Assembly: GCA_015489295.1 (NCBI GenBank)
Contig: WGAB01000139.1
Location: 1 to 14,758 of the forward strand
DNA length: 14,758 nucleotides
DNA from: Caldifarciminota bacterium
Lineage (GTDB): Bacteria > WOR-3 > Hydrothermia > WGAB01
Direction of reading: 5' to 3'
Shown: positions 1-14,758 of the stretch, piece by piece
Position numbering within the stretch: the stretch's first letter is position 1
How the letters are laid out: each line of letters opens with the position of its first letter
Notes under the pieces: generated by a model
The model's database searches: none
What the model saw: the letters and a program-made list of their open reading frames with translations, nothing else
Told to the model about the DNA's origin: nothing
Translations under genes and position numbers: made by a program

Positions 1-587
1 CCACCGTTCACCACGAGGTAGGCAAAGGCAAAGGAATCGGGAGCGGCCTCGTAGATCTGCAACTCAAAGGTGAAGGCACCCTGCGGGGTGCTCCCCACAT
101 AGTCCTGTACACTGTCCCACTCGATCACGAACACCCGGTATCCGTCCACCACATAGGTGGCGGTATCCACCCGGCCCTGCTGGCTCAGGTCCAGGTCGTC
201 CCAGAACACATAGTAGGCGTTGTTGGGCTCGCTGGACGCGGTGCTCGGGATCGCGGAGTTGGACCAGTCCAGAAGGCCCTGGTTGTTGAAGGTGGCGAAC
301 CCTTCTGTGGTGATCCAGATGGAATCGTAGTCCACACCGTAAAAGGTCACGGTAAAGGGTAGCCGGATGTGCACATAGCTGCGTTCCTCACCGGCCAGCA
401 TACTTCCGGCAGAGGTGGGGTCCCGGTAGAAAAAGGGTACGGAGCAGGCGTTCTTGGAGTCCTTCCAGTAGTGCCCGAAGTTGTCGGGACCACCGATGTC
501 CTGGAGATGGGGCCCGTCTCCCGGCGGGAGCGGGGTCGCCATGAGTGAACCGGCCAACACGATCATGCCCACTATTCTTTGCCACAT
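1..587 (-). CDS. Secreted protein, N-terminal part (cut by window edge)
   Basis: An open frame of 195 codons runs from ATG at 587 off the left edge with no stop. It starts with a signal peptide (MWQRIVGMIVLAGSLMA, one Arg then a hydrophobic stretch). The mature part begins with a FGHYWKDS motif (about residues 37-44). It continues into a beta-rich domain with LPFTVTFYG, a SIWITTEGFATF strand pair and a YYVFWDDLDL segment. I know this style of domain from large extracellular proteins of FCB-type bacteria, often upstream of C-terminal sorting domains or next to subtilisin-like peptidases, but the function-bearing part is outside the window. An AAGGAGAGGT ribosome site lies 3 nt before the ATG, and a promoter candidate lies further upstream. 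The gene is divergent from the acyl-CoA mutase. It is surely coding and exported; its role is unknown. Confidence 0.8.
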   Translation of the reverse strand, partial: MWQRIVGMIVLAGSLMATPLPPGDGPHLQDIGGPDNFGHYWKDSKNACSVPFFYRDPTSAGSMLAGEERSYVHIRLPFTVTFYGVDYDSIWITTEGFATFNNQGLLDWSNSAIPSTASSEPNNAYYVFWDDLDLSQQGRVDTATYVVDGYRVFVIEWDSVQDYVGSTPQGAFTFELQIYEAAPDSFAFAYLVVNG

Positions 588-2486: not shown

Positions 2487-3431
2487 ATGCGACCCAAGAT
2501 CAGTGTCATCGGTGCGGGCCATGTGGGGGCCGAGGTGGCCCTGCACACGGCCATGCGGGATGTAGGCGATGTGGTGCTGGTGGACATCGTGGAGGGCCTG
2601 CCCCAGGGCAAGGCCCTGGACATGTTTGAAGCCGCCCCGCTTTTGGGCTATTCCGTGCGGGTCACCGGCACCAATTCCTACGAGGACATCCGGGATTCGG
2701 ATGTGGTGGTCATCACCGCCGGCGTCGCCCGAAAGCCCGGTATGAGCCGCGAGGATCTCCTGCTCACCAACTTCCGCATCATCCGCAGCATCGCGGAGCA
2801 GATCAAGGACAAGGCCCCCAACGCCATCGTCATCATGGTGACCAACCCGCTGGATGCCATGGTGTACACGGCGTACCGGGTGCTGGGGTTCCCCCGGGAG
2901 CGGGTCATGGGCATGGCCGGCGCCCTGGATTCCACCCGGTTCCGGGCCTTCATCGCCATGGAACTGGACGTCTCCCCCCGGGACGTCACTGCCATGGTGC
3001 TCGGCACCCACGGCGACCTCATGGTGCCCCTGCCCCGGTTCGCGTCGGTGGGCGGCATCCCCATTACCGAACTCATCCCCGAGAAGCGCATTGAGGAGAT
3101 CGTGGAGCGCACCCGCAAGGGGGGCGGCGAGATCGTGGCCCTGCTGAAGACCGGTTCGGCCTACTACGCGCCCGGCACCGCCGCCGCCGATATGGTGGAG
3201 GCCGTAATCCGCGATCTACACCGGGTGATGCCCGCCAGCGTGTGGCTCCAGGGCGAGTACGGCATCCAGGATGTGTTCGTGGGCGTGCCCGTGGTGCTGG
3301 GCAGCGAAGGAATCCACAAGATCCTGGACCTGCCGCTCCAGGACCACGAACTGGCCGACCTGCAGCGCTCGGCCGAGCACGTGAAGAAACTCCAGGAGGA
3401 AGTCGACGAACTCTTCCGGAAGGAAGGGTAA
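2487..3431 (+). CDS. mdh: Malate dehydrogenase (LDH-like type)
   Basis: A 314-residue cytosolic NAD-dependent dehydrogenase that interconverts malate and oxaloacetate in the TCA cycle. The Rossmann loop is GAGHVG (9-14), and Asp33 at the end of the second strand indicates NAD rather than NADP. Substrate and catalytic residues are all in place: Arg82 and Arg88 (ARKPGMSR, the malate rather than lactate version), Asn120 (TNPLD), Asp148 and Arg151 (GALDSTRF), and His175 (GTHGD). The length is normal for the LDH-like malate dehydrogenase family. The start is set by AAAGGAGG (2473-2480), 6 nt before ATG. It lies 29 nt behind the acyl-CoA mutase, which fits a catabolic operon feeding carbon into the TCA cycle. 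The stop codon is part of the A/T run that forms the U-tract of the opposing lipA terminator. Confidence 0.95.
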   Translation: MRPKISVIGAGHVGAEVALHTAMRDVGDVVLVDIVEGLPQGKALDMFEAAPLLGYSVRVTGTNSYEDIRDSDVVVITAGVARKPGMSREDLLLTNFRIIRSIAEQIKDKAPNAIVIMVTNPLDAMVYTAYRVLGFPRERVMGMAGALDSTRFRAFIAMELDVSPRDVTAMVLGTHGDLMVPLPRFASVGGIPITELIPEKRIEEIVERTRKGGGEIVALLKTGSAYYAPGTAAADMVEAVIRDLHRVMPASVWLQGEYGIQDVFVGVPVVLGSEGIHKILDLPLQDHELADLQRSAEHVKKLQEEVDELFRKEG

Positions 3432-3468
3432 AAAAACCGGGCGGAGGCGGCTTCAGCCGCCTCCGCCC
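3430..3468 (-). terminator. Convergent terminator between mdh and lipA
   Basis: A perfect 13-bp stem, GGGCGGAGGCGGC (3439-3451) with GCCGCCTCCGCCC (3456-3468), encloses a 4-nt TTCA loop. On the minus strand the stem is followed by GG and then seven Ts (3436-3430), a textbook intrinsic terminator for the lipA operon. On the plus strand the hairpin follows the mdh stop by 7 nt but has no U-tract, so it would stop plus-strand transcription poorly by itself, though it may protect the mdh 3' end. Confidence 0.85.
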
Positions 3469-3494
3469 CTCTCACCTTCAAACCTCTGCGTCCC

Positions 3495-4409
3495 CTACCG
3501 GGCGTTCTTCTGGGCCTCTAAAAAGGCCTCCCACGCATGGTACGAACTGCGCACCAGGGGGCCCGAGGCCACATAGAGGAACCCCCGCTTCAGGCCCTCC
3601 TCCTGATAAAACCGGAACTTTTCCGGCGTCACCCACTCCTTCACCGGGTAGTGGCGGGGCGAGGGCTGCAGGTACTGGCCGATGGTGAGCACTTCCACGC
3701 CTACGGCCCGCAGGTCGTCCATGGTCTCCAGCACCTCGTCCTCGGTTTCGCCCAGGCCCACCATCATGCCGGTTTTTGACACAATGCGCGGGTTCAGCCG
3801 TTTAATGTGCTCCAGCACCCGGAGGGTTTGATCGTAGGAAGCCCGGGGATCGCGGACCTCGGGGGTTAACCGGCGAACCGTCTCGATGTTGTTCCCCAGC
3901 ACATCCGGCGCCGCATCCACCACGGTCTTCAACGCCTCCAGGTCGCCTTGGAAATCTGGAATCAATCCCTCGATGAGGGTGGCGGGAGACTTGGCCCGGA
4001 TCCGCCGGATGGTCTCGGCAAACACCCCGGCACCGCCATCGGGCAGGTCATCCCGGTCTACCGAGGTCAGAACCACGTAGTTCAACTTGAGGCGGGCTAC
4101 CGCCTCGGCCACCCGGAAGGGTTCGGTGGGGTCTACCCGGCCCTGGGGGTTACCGGTTTTGACGTTACAAAAGCGACAGGCCCGGGTGCAGGTATCCCCC
4201 AGGATCATGAAGGTGACGGTGCCGTGGCCCCAGCACTCCCCGATGTTGGGGCACCTGGCCTCCTCACACACCGTCACCAGAGAGAGCTGCCGGGTGAGGC
4301 GATGCACTTCGGGAAAATCGCCGGTGCCCGGCCAGGGAACCCGCAGCCAGGGGGGCTTGCGCCGGCCCTGGAGGGGCTTGAGGTCTTTGTCGGTGTATAC
4401 GGGGCGCAT
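3495..4409 (-). CDS. lipA: Lipoyl synthase
   Basis: A 304-residue radical SAM enzyme that inserts two sulfur atoms into protein-bound octanoyl groups to make the lipoyl cofactor of 2-oxoacid dehydrogenases and the glycine cleavage system. Both cluster motifs are complete: the auxiliary cluster CX4CX5C at Cys48, Cys53 and Cys59 ([12 protein letters not shown]), and the radical SAM cluster CX3CX2C at Cys74, Cys78 and Cys81 (CTRACRFC). The C-terminal RSSY motif (287-290), whose serine ligates the auxiliary cluster, is intact. The length is normal. AAGGAGAGG (4422-4414) precedes ATG by 4 nt and sits in the 16-nt gap after pcrA. It is last in the mrp - pcrA - lipA operon. No lipB or lplA is in the window. 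Confidence 0.96.
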
Positions 4410-4425
4410 GGTGCCTCTCCTTGGT

Positions 4426-6480
4426 TCAATCCAGCCTGGTTAAGTCCGCGTACTTCAGGCTCAGGGTCTTTTTGCCGGTGCGAAACATCACCTCGGCCTT
4501 TCCATCATACACCCTGAGCACCCGGCCCACGCCGAACCAGGCATGCCGCACCCGGTCGCCGGGCTTGATGGCCTGCTCCCGGGCCAGCAAATCGTCTTCG
4601 GGTTCCCCGGCCGTCGGTTGCTCCGCAAGGGTTTCGGGCGGAAGTTCCTGAAGGAATCGGGAGGGCCGCAGGAACTCCGTGCGCCGCAGGCTGCGCCGGT
4701 CGACATGGGTGAGGATCACCTCCTCCTGGGCCCGGGTCAGGGCTACATGGAACAGGCGGCGCTCTTCTTCTAATTCGTCGGGGTCGTAGAAGGCCGACCG
4801 ATGGGGAAAGATGCCCTCCTCCAGGCCCGAGAGGATCACCACGGGAAACTCCAGGCCCTTGGCCGTGTGGACGGTCATGAGCACCACGGCATCTTCCTCG
4901 CCACTCCAGTCGTCAATGTCGGTGCGCAGGTTCACCTCGGTGATGTACTCCAGCAGAGACACCGGTCCCTCCTCGTCGGTGCGGGCCTCCAGGCTGTTGA
5001 TCAACACCTCCACATTGTCCACCCGGGATTCGCCCTGGGCATCGGGAAAGGCCCGGCGCAGGTATTCCAGGTACCGGGTTTCCTGGACCACGGTCTTCAG
5101 GGCCTCCAGGGCGTTGTCCTGGTGGGCCCGGATCCGGGCCAGGATCTCCAGGAAACGCTCGAGGCCGCGGCGGGTGCGGCCCCGCAGGTGTTCCACCAGG
5201 TGCTCGGCCGCCTCGGGCAGGGTCAGGCCGGTTTCCGTTACGATTTGCTCCAGCCGTTCCAGGGTTTGCGGACCCACGCCCCGGGGCGGGGTGTTCACCG
5301 CCCGGAAAAAGGCTTCCCGGTCGCGGGGGTTGACCGCCAGCTTCAGATAGGCCAGCACATCCTTGATCTCCCGGCGCTCGTAAAACCTCAGGGTCCCCAC
5401 CACCTGGTGGGGGATCCGCTGGCGGGTGAACACCTCCTCGAAGGGCTTGGACTGGAAGTTGGTGCGGAAGAGGATGGCATAGTGGGAAAAGGGGCGGTCG
5501 GAGTCGAGGATCAGGTGGGCCAGGGCGCGGGCCTCCTCCATCTCGTCGGCAAAGTGGTACACGGCGATGGGCTTGCCCCCCTCCTTCTGGGTCCAGAGGG
5601 TTTTGCCCAGCCGCCGGGTGTTGCGGGCCACCACGGCCGAGGCGGCCTGAAGGATCACCGAAGTCGACCGAAAGTTCTGCTGTAGCCGGAAGATGCGGGC
5701 CCCCGGAAACGCGCGCTGAAAGTCCAGCACGTTCCTGAGGTCTGCTCCCCGGAACCCGTAAATGGCCTGGTCTTCGTCGCCAACCACGAAGAGGTTCCGG
5801 TGAACCTCGGAAAGCAGTTCCAGGATCTCAAACTGGATGCGGTTTGTGTCCTGGTACTCGTCCACCAGGATATACTCGTACCGTTCGCTGTACTGGCGGC
5901 GCACTTCGGGAAACTCGCTCAGCAGGCGGCGGAGGTTCAGGAGGAGATCGTCGAAGTCCATGGCGTTGGCCTGGCGGAGGGCCTGCTGGTACCGTTCGAG
6001 CAGCCGGGCCTCCCGGGGCTCCGGCGTGGCGCGCCCGGTTTTCCACAGGCTCAAAAGGTACGCCCAGCCCTGGGGCGTGCGTTCTTCGCGTTCGGCTTCG
6101 GTGAGGATTTTTTTGATGACCTGCTTTTGATCGTCGCGGTCGTAGATGGTAAAGGAGGGGTCGTAGCCCAGGAGCGGGGCCTCGCGGCGGAGCACCTGGG
6201 CGGCAAAGGAATGGAAGGTGCCGAGGAAAAGGTGTTCCGGACGCCAGCCCAGCAGCTGGGCCATGCGCTCCCGCATTTCATCGGCGGCCTTGTTGGTGAA
6301 GGTCAGGGCCAGGATCCGGTGTTCCGGCACCCCCCGGGCCAGAAGATAGGCGATGCGATGGGTCAGCACCCGGGTTTTGCCGGTGCCGGCACCGGCGATC
6401 ACCAGCACCGGGCCGTCGCCTTCCAGCACCGGCTGCCGTTGCTCCTCGGTGAGCTCGTCCAGCAGGCGTTGAAGATCCAC
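4426..6480 (-). CDS. pcrA: UvrD/PcrA-type superfamily 1A DNA helicase
   Basis: A 684-residue 3'-5' ATP-dependent DNA helicase of repair and replication restart. The helicase motifs are complete: Walker A AGAGTGKT (29-36), Walker B VDEYQD (206-211), [14 protein letters not shown] (233-246), QQNFRS (267-272), [10 protein letters not shown] (536-545) and VALTRA (579-584). The C-terminal 45 residues ([16 protein letters not shown] and onward) match the Tudor-like domain with which PcrA/UvrD binds RNA polymerase, suggesting a role in transcription-coupled repair. The gene starts with GTG at 6480, only 3 nt after the mrp stop, with a weak AAGGG site, so translation is probably coupled to mrp. It could equally be named uvrD; the two names overlap outside model organisms. 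Confidence 0.95.
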
Positions 6481-6483
6481 CGG

Positions 6484-7521
<1,038 letters not shown>

Positions 7522-7530
7522 GGTGGTCAA

Positions 7531-7537
7531 CCTCCTC
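7531..7537 (-). promoter_or_regulatory. Ribosome binding site that fixes the mrp start
   Basis: On the minus strand GAGGAGG (7537-7531) lies 9 nt before ATG at 7521. It decides against the longer open frame reaching 7656, which would run through the promoter region of the divergent acyl-CoA dehydrogenase gene. Confidence 0.75.
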
Positions 7538-7554
7538 AAGTGTTGTGGGTTCAT

Positions 7555-7560
7555 AGCATA
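7555..7560 (-). promoter_or_regulatory. Possible -10 box for the mrp operon
   Basis: TATGCT on the minus strand (7560-7555) would start a transcript near 7548, giving a leader of about 27 nt that includes the ribosome site. The sequence 17 nt upstream (TGTGCA) matches only 3 of 6 consensus -35 bases. This is the best candidate I see, but it is weak. Confidence 0.3.
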
Positions 7561-7606
7561 TGGCCGGTCCGCGGCCCCTGCACAGCCCGGTCCACCCCGG
7601 TTTTCG

Positions 7607-7635
7607 TTGAAGCCGTTAGGGGTTCGGTGTACATT
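7607..7635 (+). promoter_or_regulatory. Promoter of the acyl-CoA dehydrogenase operon, probably giving a leaderless mRNA
   Basis: TTGAAG (7607-7612) and TACATT (7630-7635) are separated by exactly 17 nt. Transcription would start about 7 nt downstream, at 7642-7643, which is the ATG of the dehydrogenase. No Shine-Dalgarno sequence is visible before that ATG, as expected for a leaderless message. Confidence 0.5.
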
Positions 7636-7642
7636 AAACGCC

Positions 7643-8809
7643 ATGAGTATCCGCACCGACTATTACCATCTTTGGGACCTCCTTTCCGAGGAGGAGCGGT
7701 TGATTCAGCAAATGGTCCGCGAGTTTGTGGACCAGCAGGTGCTTCCGATCATTGGCGAGTACTTCATGAAGGGCGAATTCCCCACCCAGCTCATCCAGCC
7801 CATGGCCGAACTGGGCTTCTTCGGCGCCACCCTGCCCCCGGAATACGGCGGCCAGGGCATCTCCTATACCGCCTACGGCCTCATCATGCAGGAACTGGAG
7901 CGCGGCGACTCGGGCGTGCGCAGCTTCGTGTCGGTGCAGAGTTCGCTGGCCATGAACTCCATTTTCCGGTTCGGCTCCGAAGAGCAGAAGAAAAAGTACC
8001 TGCCCAAGATGGCCCGGGGTGAACTCATCGGCTGCTTCGGCCTTACGGAGCCGGACGCCGGCTCGGACCCCGGCGCCATGAAAACCCGGGCCATTCCCGA
8101 CGGCGACACCTGGATCCTGAAGGGCACCAAGCTCTGGATTACCAACGGCGACCTGGCCGACCTTGCCATCGTGTGGGCCCGCGACCATGAGGGCAAGGTT
8201 CGGGGATTCATCGTGGAAAAGGGCACGCCGGGGTTCTCGGCCAACCCGGTGAAGGGCAAACTCTCGCTGAGGGCCTCGGACACGGCCGAACTCGTGCTGG
8301 AGGAGGCCCGGGTGCCCAAGGAAAACATGCTGCCGGGCGCCTACAAACTGGCCCACGCCCTGACGCCGCTTACCCAGGCCCGCTACAGCATCGCCTGGGG
8401 CGCTGTGGGCGCCGCCATGGCCTGCTACGAGGAGGCCCTGGACTACGCCAAGGAACGCATCGCCTTTGGCAAACCCATCGCCGCCTTTCAATTGACCCAG
8501 CAGCGCCTCGTGGACATGCTTACCGGCCTTACCAACGCCCAGCTTCTGGCCTATCACCTGGGCCGGCTGGCCGATGAGGGCAAGATGCGGCACACCCATG
8601 TGTCCCTTGCCAAGCGCTACAACGTGCGCACCGCCCTCGAGATCGCCCGGGAGGCCCGGAACATCCTGGGCGCCAACGGCATCACCATTGAGTACCAGAG
8701 CATGCGCCACGCGGCCAACCTGGAAAGCGTGGACACCTACGAGGGCACCTATCAGATTCATACCCTCATCGTGGGCAAGGACATTACCGGCTTTGAGGCC
8801 TACGCCTGA
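7643..8809 (+). CDS. Acyl-CoA dehydrogenase, glutaryl-CoA dehydrogenase type
   Basis: A 388-residue FAD enzyme of the acyl-CoA dehydrogenase family, with normal three-domain length. Flavin and substrate motifs include CFGLTEPDAGSDPG (131-144) and KLWITN (163-168). The catalytic base is Glu367 in DTYEGTYQIH. It resembles glutaryl-CoA dehydrogenase: ELERGDSGVRSFVSVQSS carries Glu86, Arg93 and Ser97, matching human Glu87, Arg94 and Ser98 that hold the glutaryl carboxylate, and Tyr366 matches Tyr369. That set points to oxidative decarboxylation of glutaryl-CoA to crotonyl-CoA, as in lysine, tryptophan and aromatic catabolism. A short-chain acyl-CoA substrate remains possible. The start at 7643 follows the family N-terminus; upstream in-frame sequence lies in the promoter. 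There is no ribosome site. The stop overlaps the holA start as TGATG. Confidence 0.9.
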   Translation: MSIRTDYYHLWDLLSEEERLIQQMVREFVDQQVLPIIGEYFMKGEFPTQLIQPMAELGFFGATLPPEYGGQGISYTAYGLIMQELERGDSGVRSFVSVQSSLAMNSIFRFGSEEQKKKYLPKMARGELIGCFGLTEPDAGSDPGAMKTRAIPDGDTWILKGTKLWITNGDLADLAIVWARDHEGKVRGFIVEKGTPGFSANPVKGKLSLRASDTAELVLEEARVPKENMLPGAYKLAHALTPLTQARYSIAWGAVGAAMACYEEALDYAKERIAFGKPIAAFQLTQQRLVDMLTGLTNAQLLAYHLGRLADEGKMRHTHVSLAKRYNVRTALEIAREARNILGANGITIEYQSMRHAANLESVDTYEGTYQIHTLIVGKDITGFEAYA

Positions 8810-12165: not shown

Positions 12166-12262
12166 GTCGGTGTTCCGTTCCGCAACAGGGGTTCACCCTT
12201 CCCTGGCGCTCCCCTTTCCCATAGAAACCCTATCCGGTCAACATTGGCCCATAAACCGGCGT

Positions 12263-12284: not shown

Positions 12285-12301
12285 TTGGCAGAGGGTTTGC
12301 A
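12285..12301 (+). promoter_or_regulatory. Sigma-54 (RpoN) promoter of the octaheme cytochrome cluster
   Basis: TTGGCA (12285-12290) and TTGCA (12297-12301) reproduce the sigma-54 pattern YTGGCAC-N5-TTGCW. The invariant GG (12287-12288) and GC (12299-12300) are exactly 10 nt apart. Only the CG after TGGCA is non-consensus (GA). Transcription would start near 12311, leaving a leader of about 43 nt with the AGGAGG ribosome site. No sigma-70 promoter with proper spacing is seen here. Sigma-54 promoters need an ATP-dependent enhancer-binding protein, so the genes downstream are expected to be switched on by a signal. Confidence 0.7.
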
Positions 12302-12353
12302 TACTTTACGGTGACGCTGAACCTACCGGACTGCGAAACAAAAGGAGGGCATC

Positions 12354-13427
12354 ATGAAGCGGCTTGTTGCAGGACTCGCAGTCATCGGGTTGGTCCTGGT
12401 GCTCGGGACCAACTGTAAGAAGACCGAGGAAGAAGCGGCTGGTCCCGAGCAAACGCTGCCGACCTCGCTCCACGGCACCACCTACGGCATGAAGTACTGG
12501 TACGAGATCGCCCAGCCGCAGGGCTTCATCCAGTTTACCAACATCCCCTACGACTCCCTGGGCTGCTACCACTGCCACATTGATGTGGAGGAATACGGCT
12601 GTAGCCAGTGCCACGAGACCCCGGGCGACAAACCCACGGCGGACAAGTGCTACCAGTGCCACGGACGCGAAAAGAAGGAGAGCATGTTCTACAGCGATGT
12701 GCACCGGGACGAGTACGGTATGGTGTGCGCCGACTGCCATAAGGACGAGGAGGTCCACGGCGACGGCAACCACTACAACACCATGTATGTGAGCCCCCAC
12801 GAGCCCAAGTGTGAGGACTGCCATAACCCGAGCGACTTGCCGCAGCACGCCGAGCACGCCATGCACCTGAGCAACCTGCACTGCACCGCCTGCCACGCCC
12901 AGGCCGTGATCTCCTGCTACAGCTGCCACTTCCAGTCCATGACCCAGTACGGCATCAAGCTCGCCTACGGCGTGCTGAAGGATTGGCTCTTCCTGGCCAA
13001 TAACCCCGACGGCAAGGTGCAGGCGGCCATCCTCATGCCGCTGGAGTACGGCGAGGGCAAAACCTTCATGGCCATCGGCCGGTACGTGCCGCACACCATC
13101 ACCAAGGAGAACGCGCGGCACTGCTCCGACTGCCACAACAACGCGGCAGCCCAGGAGTACCTGGAAACCGGCGAGATCGTGTGCACCTGGTGGAACCCGG
13201 ATTCCGCCCGCCTGGAGCACCTGACGGGCGTGATCCCGATTCCGCCGGACTACCAGACCGCGCTGAAGTTCACCTACATGCAGTGCGTGAGCGGCTGCGA
13301 CGATCCGCAAACCGCCCAGTGGGAACCCATCGAGCCCATGGGGGTGACCAACGCCTGGCAGATGCTGGACGAGTCCTGTGAACCCCTTACCCGTGAACAG
13401 ATCGAAAGACTGGCGGAACCCCACTGA
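12354..13427 (+). CDS. Octaheme c-type cytochrome, exported, possible lipoprotein
   Basis: A 357-residue protein with a signal sequence (MKRLVAGLAVIGLVLVLG) and Cys21 followed by KKTEEE. A lipoprotein is possible, although GTN before the Cys is a poor lipobox. Eight CXXCH haem motifs begin at Cys71, 83, 99, 125, 153, 177, 188 and 257. Extra histidines (40, 117, 135, 140, 149, 165, 168, 171, 176, 247, 256) are enough for bis-His ligation. Hemes 7 and 8 are separated by a heme-free stretch (193-256). The tail has CVSGCDD (311-317), a Cys pair that is not a heme motif. There is no CXXCK, so the lysine-ligated active site of NrfA or octaheme tetrathionate reductase is absent. I read it as an electron carrier outside the inner membrane; the family is unassigned. 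AGGAGG sits 5 nt before ATG. Confidence 0.92.
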   Translation: MKRLVAGLAVIGLVLVLGTNCKKTEEEAAGPEQTLPTSLHGTTYGMKYWYEIAQPQGFIQFTNIPYDSLGCYHCHIDVEEYGCSQCHETPGDKPTADKCYQCHGREKKESMFYSDVHRDEYGMVCADCHKDEEVHGDGNHYNTMYVSPHEPKCEDCHNPSDLPQHAEHAMHLSNLHCTACHAQAVISCYSCHFQSMTQYGIKLAYGVLKDWLFLANNPDGKVQAAILMPLEYGEGKTFMAIGRYVPHTITKENARHCSDCHNNAAAQEYLETGEIVCTWWNPDSARLEHLTGVIPIPPDYQTALKFTYMQCVSGCDDPQTAQWEPIEPMGVTNAWQMLDESCEPLTREQIERLAEPH

Positions 13428-13451
13428 TCCGCCTTTCCGGGCCATAGGTTT

Positions 13452-13481
13452 GCTGCGGGGCCCTGCACAGGGCCCCGCAGC
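13452..13481 (+). terminator. Strong hairpin between cytochrome and barrel genes (attenuator or 3' stabiliser)
   Basis: A perfect 13-bp stem (13452-13464 with 13469-13481; core CTGCGGGGCCC and GGGCCCCGCAG) has a 4-nt GCAC loop. It stands 24 nt after the cytochrome stop. Only three Ts follow (13484-13486), so termination should be partial. In an operon such a hairpin commonly keeps the upstream message (here the cytochrome) more abundant than the downstream genes. No separate promoter is visible before the next gene. Confidence 0.55.
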
Positions 13482-13510
13482 CGTTTGAAACGCTCCAAAG
13501 GAGGCTTGGT

Positions 13511-14680
13511 ATGGGCGTTTTGTGGACCGTTCTCCTGGCCTGGACCCTGCACGGGGGGCTGGGGCTCAGCGTGGTGCCCTATGCGGTAACCGATTCCACC
13601 CGCGACGTTTCCATCGCCCCCTACCTCCGGGTACAGGCCCAGAACCTCCTGCCCGGCCTGGCGGTGAACCTGGCACTCCGGGGGTACCGGGCCGATACGA
13701 TCCGCCCAAAGGCCCCACCCCTGCGGCTGCTCGTGGCCAACGTCGATTTCCGACGCCCCGGTGTTCCGCTCACCTTCCGCGTGGGCCGGCAGTTCCAGTA
13801 TCTCGGACTCGGCGGCCTGGTGGACGGCGCCTCCGTGGGCCTTCTGCTGAATCGCGCTGAGATCTCGGCCCTGCTGGGATACCGCGCCCCCTCGGTGTTT
13901 GACGATACCGTGGGCCTGGAAATCCGAAGCCAGAACCCCCTGTTCGCCGTGCAGGCCCGGATGGATCCCCTGGCCCGGCTCCAGGTGTACGCGGGCTACG
14001 GCCGCGAAGGCCTCCGGGATACCGTGGTGCAGGCCCCCCTGTGGCTCGGTTTCCGGTCCTACGACCACGCCTGGAACCTGGAAGGGGAACTGGCCTACGA
14101 CCTGGAATACTCGGTGCTCAGCCGCGGCTACCTGAGCGCTTCGTACCGGATCCCCCGGGCCCTGTTCCACCTCCACTACCGGTACCAGGATCCCTGGCGC
14201 GATTTCCGGAAACTCACCCTGCCCTCCTGGCTCCGCGATGACCCCGTGAAGTACAGCATCCCCACCCATCGCCTGGAAGCCTCGGTGCGGCTCCAGGATC
14301 CCCTGCCCGGCGCTACTTTCGGCCTCTTTTATGCATATAACACCGAAACCTCTTACCGCCACCTCTGGATGGCGTACCGGCTTCAGCGGCTCTATGTTCG
14401 GGTGTGGACCGGCGAGGAGTGGGAAGGCACGGCTTACGGTGGCCTTCTCACCTACAGCCATCCCCTGAGCCCCCGGCTTTCGGCCCTGCTCCAGCTTCGC
14501 CTGGCCAAAAGCCCCCGCTATGACGGCATGGCATACAGCTTCCGCCCCCGCCTGGTATGGCGCTTCCCCGGCTCGGGCCTCTCCGTACAGTCCGAGTTCC
14601 GTTTCTGGAAACTGCCCGGCGTAAAGTGGGAAACCCAGGGGTACCTGGGTCTGCACCTGCCCTTCAGCAGGAGGTTTTGA
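13511..14680 (+). CDS. Outer-membrane beta-barrel protein, porin-like
   Basis: A 389-residue protein with a signal peptide-like N-terminus (MGVLWTVLLAWTLHGGLGLS; it lacks the usual positive charge). Long runs of alternating hydrophobic and polar residues are rich in Tyr, Trp, Arg and Gly (LFHLHYRYQDPW, FGLFYAYNTETSYRHLW, LYVRVWTGEEW). The protein ends in LGLHLPFSRRF, with the terminal Phe that the BAM machinery recognises. No cysteines or heme motifs are seen. The size could hold roughly 16-20 strands; I cannot assign a porin family. AAAGGAGG (13497-13504) lies 6 nt before ATG. It stands between a multiheme cytochrome and another exported protein, so it may be the barrel of an electron conduit across the outer membrane. 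A substrate porin or solute channel is the alternative. Confidence 0.82.
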   Translation: MGVLWTVLLAWTLHGGLGLSVVPYAVTDSTRDVSIAPYLRVQAQNLLPGLAVNLALRGYRADTIRPKAPPLRLLVANVDFRRPGVPLTFRVGRQFQYLGLGGLVDGASVGLLLNRAEISALLGYRAPSVFDDTVGLEIRSQNPLFAVQARMDPLARLQVYAGYGREGLRDTVVQAPLWLGFRSYDHAWNLEGELAYDLEYSVLSRGYLSASYRIPRALFHLHYRYQDPWRDFRKLTLPSWLRDDPVKYSIPTHRLEASVRLQDPLPGATFGLFYAYNTETSYRHLWMAYRLQRLYVRVWTGEEWEGTAYGGLLTYSHPLSPRLSALLQLRLAKSPRYDGMAYSFRPRLVWRFPGSGLSVQSEFRFWKLPGVKWETQGYLGLHLPFSRRF

Positions 14681-14683
14681 GCC

Positions 14684-14758
14684 ATGCAAGCCCTGCTTTT
14701 GCTTCTTGTGACCTGGACCTTTCCGCACCAATTGCACGTGGTGGAAATGGGCCTGGAG
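14684..14758 (+). CDS. Exported protein, N-terminal 25 codons; possibly a second multiheme cytochrome
   Basis: ATG at 14684 follows AGGAGG (14669-14674) by 9 nt and the barrel stop by 3 nt, so it belongs to the same operon. The frame stays open to the window edge. It encodes a hydrophobic signal-like start (MQALLLLLVTWT) and then FPHQLHVVEMGLE. That ending looks like the lead-in to a first heme site in cytochrome c3/c7-type proteins (F-x-H-x-x-H-x-x-x-x-G-x-x before CXXCH). The window stops exactly where the first Cys would come, so the cytochrome call is inference. Signal peptide and ribosome site are visible. Confidence 0.7.
   Translation, partial: MQALLLLLVTWTFPHQLHVVEMGLE

Follow-up and report, generated by a model that had tools for sequence, protein, structure and literature searches.

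Does a three-gene cluster at the end of a WOR-3 contig encode a path for electrons across the outer membrane, and which of its proteins would form that path? The stretch of DNA analysed (contig WGAB01000139.1, 14,758 nucleotides, hereafter the window) closes with genes for an octaheme c-type cytochrome, an outer-membrane beta-barrel and a third exported protein. A preliminary description had likened this cluster to known porin-cytochrome conduits, with the octaheme as the conduit cytochrome. Our analysis indicates that the cluster is probably a porin-cytochrome electron conduit. The analogy is likely right, and on firmer ground than first given, since the third gene, and not the octaheme gene, would supply the heme wire. 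In our best reading the conduit architecture is known, and the novelty lies in the barrel family, in the phylum and in an octaheme of ExtM/OTR (octaheme tetrathionate reductase) type in the partner position. No outer-membrane electron conduit is described for WOR-3 in the portions of the open-access literature searched; the cluster would add one to this phylum, allowing electrons to pass to or from the surroundings.

Results

The genome nearest to the window is the WOR-3 genome G001 (locus L012, contig JALXEF010000048.1), in which the gene order is alike and the octaheme and barrel are 96% and 91.5% identical to those of the window. Sequence past base 14758 was read from L012, which is not part of the window's own assembly, and from database proteins. 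A total of 147 WOR-3 genomes were surveyed.

Table 1. Positions of the features discussed (in the window, unless a locus is named)
Feature	Position	Strand	Basis
Candidate activator site (lead only), 26-nt block with inverted ends CCGGT...ACCGG	12234-12259	+	25/26 bases as in L012, flanks differ
Sigma-54-type -24/-12 promoter, TGGCAGAGGGTTTGCA	12286-12301	+	Strict pattern match, kept in L012, rpoN in G001
Octaheme c-type cytochrome, probable lipoprotein (Cys21), ExtM-like / OTR superfamily	12354-13427	+	8 CXXCH, alignment, hhalign, fold comparison
13-bp stem-loop between octaheme and barrel genes	13452-13481	+	Folding compared with shuffles
Outer-membrane beta-barrel, predicted 22 strands, C-terminal Phe	13511-14680	+	AlphaFold2 model, structure matches, WOR-3 relatives
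Start of 11-heme exported cytochrome gene, ended by window edge	14684-14758	+	25/25 residues as in L012 12327-13130 and P0031
Row of NapC/NrfH-type protein, 8-heme PF13447 cytochrome, 7-heme cytochrome and Alginate_exp-type barrel	L048 (G001:C68) 3228-7647

The barrel and the 11-heme cytochrome

The third gene begins with an ATG three bases past the barrel stop and has 25 codons inside the window. The full protein, as read from L012 and P0031, comprises 267 aa with 11 CXXCH motifs and 2.6 kDa per heme. The preliminary description had regarded a third gene without heme motifs as evidence against a conduit and had proposed reading past 14758 for CXXCH proteins; that reading, in the nearest genome, identified the third exported protein as this multiheme cytochrome. 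The genes behind it in L012 are presumably panC and panD, so the cluster seems to end there.

Alignment A3 of the 11-heme family was composed of 18 of 120 database proteins (251 found) and two loci. The 11-heme profile matched 8 of the 147 genomes at E ≤ 1e-20 and six of them at E ≤ 1e-50 (G001, G002, G004, G014, G018 and G056). Weaker and shorter matches had E values of 4e-25 to 3e-30, one of them in G002 being a 7-heme protein beside an 18-heme one. The results showed a barrel-type gene directly ahead of the 11- or 12-heme gene in all six strongly matching genomes. The two genes are separated by 3 bases in the window and L012 and by 1 base in G014; in G004, G018 and G002 they overlap, by 4, 4 and 19 bases respectively (script-called starts). 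The G056 contig breaks off within the cytochrome gene, the start of which is indistinct. A gap of ≤ 3 bases or an overlap was found in five loci (L012, L020, L021, L039 and L040). This conserved coupling points to the barrel and the 11-heme protein as the functional core; judged by gene order, the core of the system is barrel plus 11-heme cytochrome, not barrel plus octaheme. Matches of the 11-heme profile in the PDB (c7-type proteins, alternative complex III subunit A) were attributed to heme-motif similarity and not used for membership.

The barrel protein (389 aa) begins 83 bases after the octaheme gene and ends in RRF, in agreement with the terminal Phe reported earlier. Its AlphaFold2 model, made from a ten-sequence alignment, has 22 strands, a mean predicted local distance difference test score of 78.5 and a predicted template modelling score of 0.64; the first predicted strand overlaps the probable signal peptide. 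Among the structure matches listed, nearly all were outer-membrane barrels of unrelated families (ushers, TonB-dependent receptors, porins), and because they were spread so widely no family was assigned. The MtrB chain was not among the matches listed, which is no evidence either way.

At E ≤ 1 the window barrel matched no model in Pfam or NCBIfam. For all ten barrel members there was no NCBIfam match and just three weak single-member Pfam matches (LptD, BBP2 and PlyB_C; E 0.018-0.13), which were taken as noise. A known channel, which had been named as one of the findings that would speak against a conduit, was accordingly rejected for these curated families. The proposal of an undescribed type holds for the barrel, which no curated family tried matched, and fails for the architecture, which is that of known conduits. 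In a set of 5.8 billion proteins, of which only the 7998 best candidates were scored, four relatives of the barrel were found, with 65-92% identity. As a family recognised by neither curated library tried, the barrel is usable as a marker. In the predicted fold, 19 Arg occupy the 114 inward-facing strand positions, the faces having been set by hydrophobicity, which itself favours Arg inside; the net charge of the 11-heme partner is -12.

Comparison with known conduits

According to the sections of PMC4245776 consulted, the porin gene of porin-cytochrome (Pcc) systems always occurs with a periplasmic cytochrome gene, the barrels have 18-22 strands and the cytochromes 5-14 hemes, and porin and periplasmic cytochrome apparently co-evolve while the outer cytochrome is highly diverse. 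In the Geobacter conduits (OmbB-OmaB-OmcB; ExtABCD, ExtEFG) the surface lipoprotein is replaced between species, as stated in parts of PMC4245776 and PMC6148476. The present system resembles the Geobacter Pcc systems in having a porin-like barrel beside a multiheme cytochrome, together with a variable lipoprotein cytochrome. A porin-like barrel adjoins an exported multiheme cytochrome gene in the window/L012 and in 6/6 genomes, and both the 22 predicted strands and the 11 hemes lie within the published ranges. It differs in its 11 hemes, compared with 8 or 12 in Geobacter, and in a barrel without a curated-family match. In G152, the one Geobacter-type genome searched, the sole match of the 11-heme profile at E ≤ 1e-20 was partial and belonged to a 5-heme protein of another kind. 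The likeness to OmbB and ExtB is one of architecture, not of sequence comparison.

With MtrCAB of Shewanella the system shares the general principle of a barrel and a heme chain. The barrels differ in predicted strand number, which is 22 here and 28 for MtrB (PMC4245776). No Pfam or NCBIfam model, and hence none for the MtrB family, matched the window barrel at E ≤ 1. The L012 11-heme protein gave no match to TIGR03508 (MtrA/DmsE decaheme) at E ≤ 0.01, and three 11-heme orthologues reached 17-21 bits against a cut-off of 192. Membership in MtrCAB was rejected by these barrel and MtrA/DmsE models.

The octaheme cytochrome and its relatives

The octaheme cytochrome of the preliminary description was borne out: the protein (357 aa, 4.8 kDa per heme) carries CXXCH motifs at residues 71, 83, 99, 125, 153, 177, 188 and 257. 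Alignment A1 contained 32 rows (the window, 9 loci and 22 of 26 database proteins), among which the single motif loss was one CXXCH in P0005. Outside the CXXCH motifs, no more than six His are invariant across these homologues, for eight hemes, and no Lys is; residue 46, preceded by an invariant Gly, is Met in 17 and Lys in 15. The relatives come from WOR-3 genomes and from records labelled Armatimonadetes, Deltaproteobacteria, Syntrophaceae and Planctomycetota.

Comparison of profiles with hhalign gave E 4.7e-23 over 199 columns for the octaheme family against the ExtM-like protein of G152, with all eight octaheme hemes aligned at 33% identity, and E 1.6e-13 over 128 columns against OTR, the OTR profile being built from 4 sequences, taken from the plus strand alone of 10 loci and including two 5-heme fragments. 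As controls, the octaheme profile reached 5.7e-14 against the 11-heme profile (67 columns only), 6e-14 against the Geobacter OTR-like protein L017 (126 columns), 5.3e-10 against the 8-heme lipoprotein of G002 (157 columns), 2.2e-6 against L086 (73 columns) and 8.4e-7 against the PF13447 octaheme of G001 (28 columns); the 11-heme profile reached 8e-8 against OTR, 1.7e-6 against L017 and 7e-4 against the ExtM-like protein. In view of these controls, the OTR value by itself is unconvincing and the ExtM value is convincing.

All 32 octaheme family members matched the ExtM model NF040943 at E ≤ 0.01. The window protein scored 25.9 bits against a cut-off of 800 and has 8 hemes instead of 12 and 357 residues against 599 model positions; the ExtM-like protein of G152 likewise falls under the cut-off. 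ExtM also stands in a porin cluster, Geobacter ext, as reported in part of PMC5877670.

The OTR model TIGR04315 gave no match to the window octaheme at E ≤ 1 and matched 8/32 members at E ≤ 0.01 (best 5e-7), the G002 octaheme scoring 26.1 bits against a cut-off of 375. The lysine stretch VKHGD of OTR (1sp3, L096), in which we take Lys153 of 1sp3 to be a heme ligand, is missing from the aligned region of the family. In our reading of the alignment, the first heme of OTR is missing as well, and an extra heme stands between OTR hemes seven and eight. Membership in the OTR family was rejected on the cut-off and the lysine stretch, and profile matches to NrfB and MtrA-complex chains were not used for membership. 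Sequence comparison nevertheless allows the kin to be named as Geobacter ExtM-like proteins and, more distantly, OTR. The earlier statement that the heme spacing could not be assigned to the MtrA, OmaB or OTR/HAO families stands as far as the OTR cut-off is concerned, although relatives can now be named. The family is thus an ExtM-like, OTR-superfamily octaheme family without assigned function.

Partner cytochromes and octaheme distribution

Beside the barrel, five loci carry a further multiheme cytochrome with a lipoprotein-like start, which is an 8-heme protein, a 6-heme protein or the octaheme (lipoprotein starts, and the ArsR identity below, were judged by eye). The order in G004 and G018 is octaheme, small ArsR-like gene, 6-heme lipoprotein-like cytochrome, barrel and 12-heme protein, the last cut by the contig end in G018. 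A 6-heme lipoprotein-like cytochrome is divergent from the barrel in G014, and an 8-heme one lies ahead of it in G002. The octaheme itself holds the position ahead of the barrel in the window and G001, whereas the G056 contig, which is short, showed no cytochrome of this kind. Since this cytochrome varies between genomes as in Geobacter, the window octaheme is placed in the exchangeable partner slot, with the reservation that a 744-residue 8-heme protein elsewhere in G001 could serve. That protein (L086, G001:C29, 1981-4215) is a possible alternative surface cytochrome. The ArsR-like gene lies at L020 4364-4696 and L021 2881-3213 (G004, G018), and a similar one is found behind the G014 octaheme (L019 10842-11168).

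The octaheme was found in 7/147 WOR-3 genomes, the full-length 11/12-heme partner in 6/147 and both in five (hypergeometric p 2.3e-7 by genome and 4.9e-5 by genus, kinship not corrected for). The octaheme is near the barrel in three of these five. Neither octaheme nor conduit pair was found in G009, of the genus of G004 and G018, or in G022, of the same family. In the octaheme tree the sequences from conduit genomes form one clade (96/90), so shared descent accounts for part of the co-occurrence. Two WOR-3 octahemes of family f16 group with other phyla, apart from this clade; G056 (f16, 77% complete) has the conduit pair and gave no octaheme match.

Promoter and transcription

The pattern TGGCA-N6-TTGCW occurs once in the window, against 0.07 expected, and 11/200 shuffles contained it one or more times. 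The site is fully conserved in L012, whose aligned leader has 90% overall identity, and an rpoN domain was found in G001. A weighted scan scored the site 20 of 21.5 and the next best in the window 19.0. Only L012 equals it; for 14 other starts (octahemes, partner cytochromes and two barrels, with L015 outside the scan) the highest scores within 300 bases were 11.5-17.0. The full consensus with two mismatches allowed gave 2 matches in the window against 2.19 expected, no better than chance, and the case for the promoter therefore rests on the strict pattern, its conservation and rpoN. With GG-N10-GC in consensus flanks and rpoN in the nearest genome, the site has the sequence hallmarks of a sigma-54-dependent promoter, as described earlier. 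In other genomes, the octaheme and conduit genes scanned had no comparable site upstream; if real, sigma-54 control would thus be particular to the window lineage. Beside the cluster no gene for an activator was recognised, G001 not having been searched for one; the candidate activator block ends 26 bases before the -24/-12 site.

Across G001 the strict pattern has 7 exact matches against 1 in the reversed control, and five of the seven overlap script-listed reading frames and may be chance. At L088 (G001:C31, 1028-1516) a strict site precedes a type IV pilin-like gene (by eye), which immediately follows the gene of an NtrC-family regulator containing a sigma-54 interaction domain; pilR-pilA in Geobacter has the same regulator/pilin arrangement (PMC2725144, in part).

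Between the octaheme and barrel genes, region 13428-13500 folds with a minimum free energy of -35.6 kcal/mol (z -2.79; 2/200 shuffles as good), and L012 has a 12-bp stem at the same place (z -4.17). This hairpin may end or uncouple part of the transcripts, so a single operon is not certain.

Discussion

We propose that the barrel, predicted to lie in the outer membrane, would hold the 11-heme cytochrome wholly or partly inside its pore, and that electrons would cross the membrane along the 11-heme chain, presumably outward. The octaheme lipoprotein would most likely be anchored at the outer membrane and pass electrons from the chain to an outside acceptor; it might instead feed the chain from the periplasm. 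In the window lineage the genes would be transcribed from the sigma-54 promoter.

Several observations weigh against this reading. The downstream gene was taken from another assembly than that of the window. The more distant barrels (15-28% identity to that of the window) were recognised largely by where they stand, ahead of the 11-heme gene, together with weak similarity, and charge complementarity is not general, the G002 barrel having a net charge of -2. The octaheme lipobox is imperfect, with Asn at -1 of Cys21, where A, G or S is usual; A or G stands there in several orthologues (P0003, P0004, G014, G004, G018). The octaheme is on another contig than the barrel in G002 and G014. In G045, G050 and three genomes from other phyla it has no recognised barrel as neighbour, no beta-barrel predictor having been run there; with contigs as short as 5 kb (L015) and 10 kb (L023), a barrel could lie farther off. 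The preliminary description had held that octahemes consistently occurring without the barrel would count against a conduit; the barrel is near in three genomes, and elsewhere none was recognised next to the octaheme. A heme-copper oxidase scored over cut-off in three of five conduit genomes tested (G002, G004, G018). Neither ferric citrate nor ferrihydrite was used by sy37, an isolate of WOR-3, a finding that concerns phenotype only.

The separate placing of the octaheme in G002 and G014, the hairpin ahead of the barrel gene, and the cytochrome c maturation- or dehydrogenase-like genes near the octaheme in G050 and G045 (by eye) would all suit a conduit of barrel and 11-heme protein in which the octaheme has no part, being a general periplasmic carrier that merely stands in front in this lineage. 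We hold this possible, though on balance not probable, given the co-occurrence in five genomes, the clustering with the barrel in three of them, and the lack of both octaheme and pair in the congener G009 and the same-family G022. It is unlikely that the octaheme is instead a periplasmic or surface reductase of a soluble S, Se or N oxyanion, with the barrel admitting the substrate and the 11-heme protein acting as a periplasmic carrier: the OTR lysine stretch is missing, 4.8 kDa per heme groups the protein with electron carriers and not enzymes by a published rule, and the constant pairing of barrel and 11-heme genes points to a conduit. An inward conduit, taking electrons from a mineral, Fe(II) or a partner cell, appears more improbable again. 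In its favour, heme chains have no inherent direction of electron flow, and inward use has been proposed for the OetABI conduit of sulfate reducers. Against it stand the acyl-CoA dehydrogenase and methylmalonyl-CoA mutase genes elsewhere in the window, which suit a heterotroph, and the lack of a heme-copper oxidase over cut-off in G001 (completeness 100%).

The octaheme might also be an enzyme at the cell surface, a terminal reductase (or the first acceptor of electrons) connected by wire through the pore, derived from the ExtM/OTR type, recruited to a conduit and with one heme ligated by residue 46. That residue is suggested as a ligand because it is only Met or Lys after an invariant Gly, with six invariant non-CXXCH His for eight hemes. 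We consider this rather doubtful; if true, the octaheme would be catalytic and fed by the conduit, in a phylum for which no extracellular respiration has been described.

Physiological context

Accounts of WOR-3, as far as their text was available, describe fermentation, hydrogen, sulfur reduction, partial denitrification and oxygen respiration, and in the main text of a survey of 181 WOR-3 metagenome-assembled genomes the words extracellular, heme and porin do not occur. Electrons usually pass from quinol to the periplasm through a NapC/NrfH-type protein. One such protein was found in G001, which makes a quinol-to-conduit electron path conceivable there; the gene row at L048 is possibly a second respiratory module. 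G014, like G001, gave no heme-copper oxidase over cut-off. Large, similar cytochrome clusters with 18-heme, 16-heme and 9-heme proteins lie near b-type cytochrome-like genes at L050 (G014:C4) and L051 (G004:C3). At the opposite end of the window, positions 3-587 (-) encode a protein that looks exported and gave a weak nidogen-like match (E 0.016).

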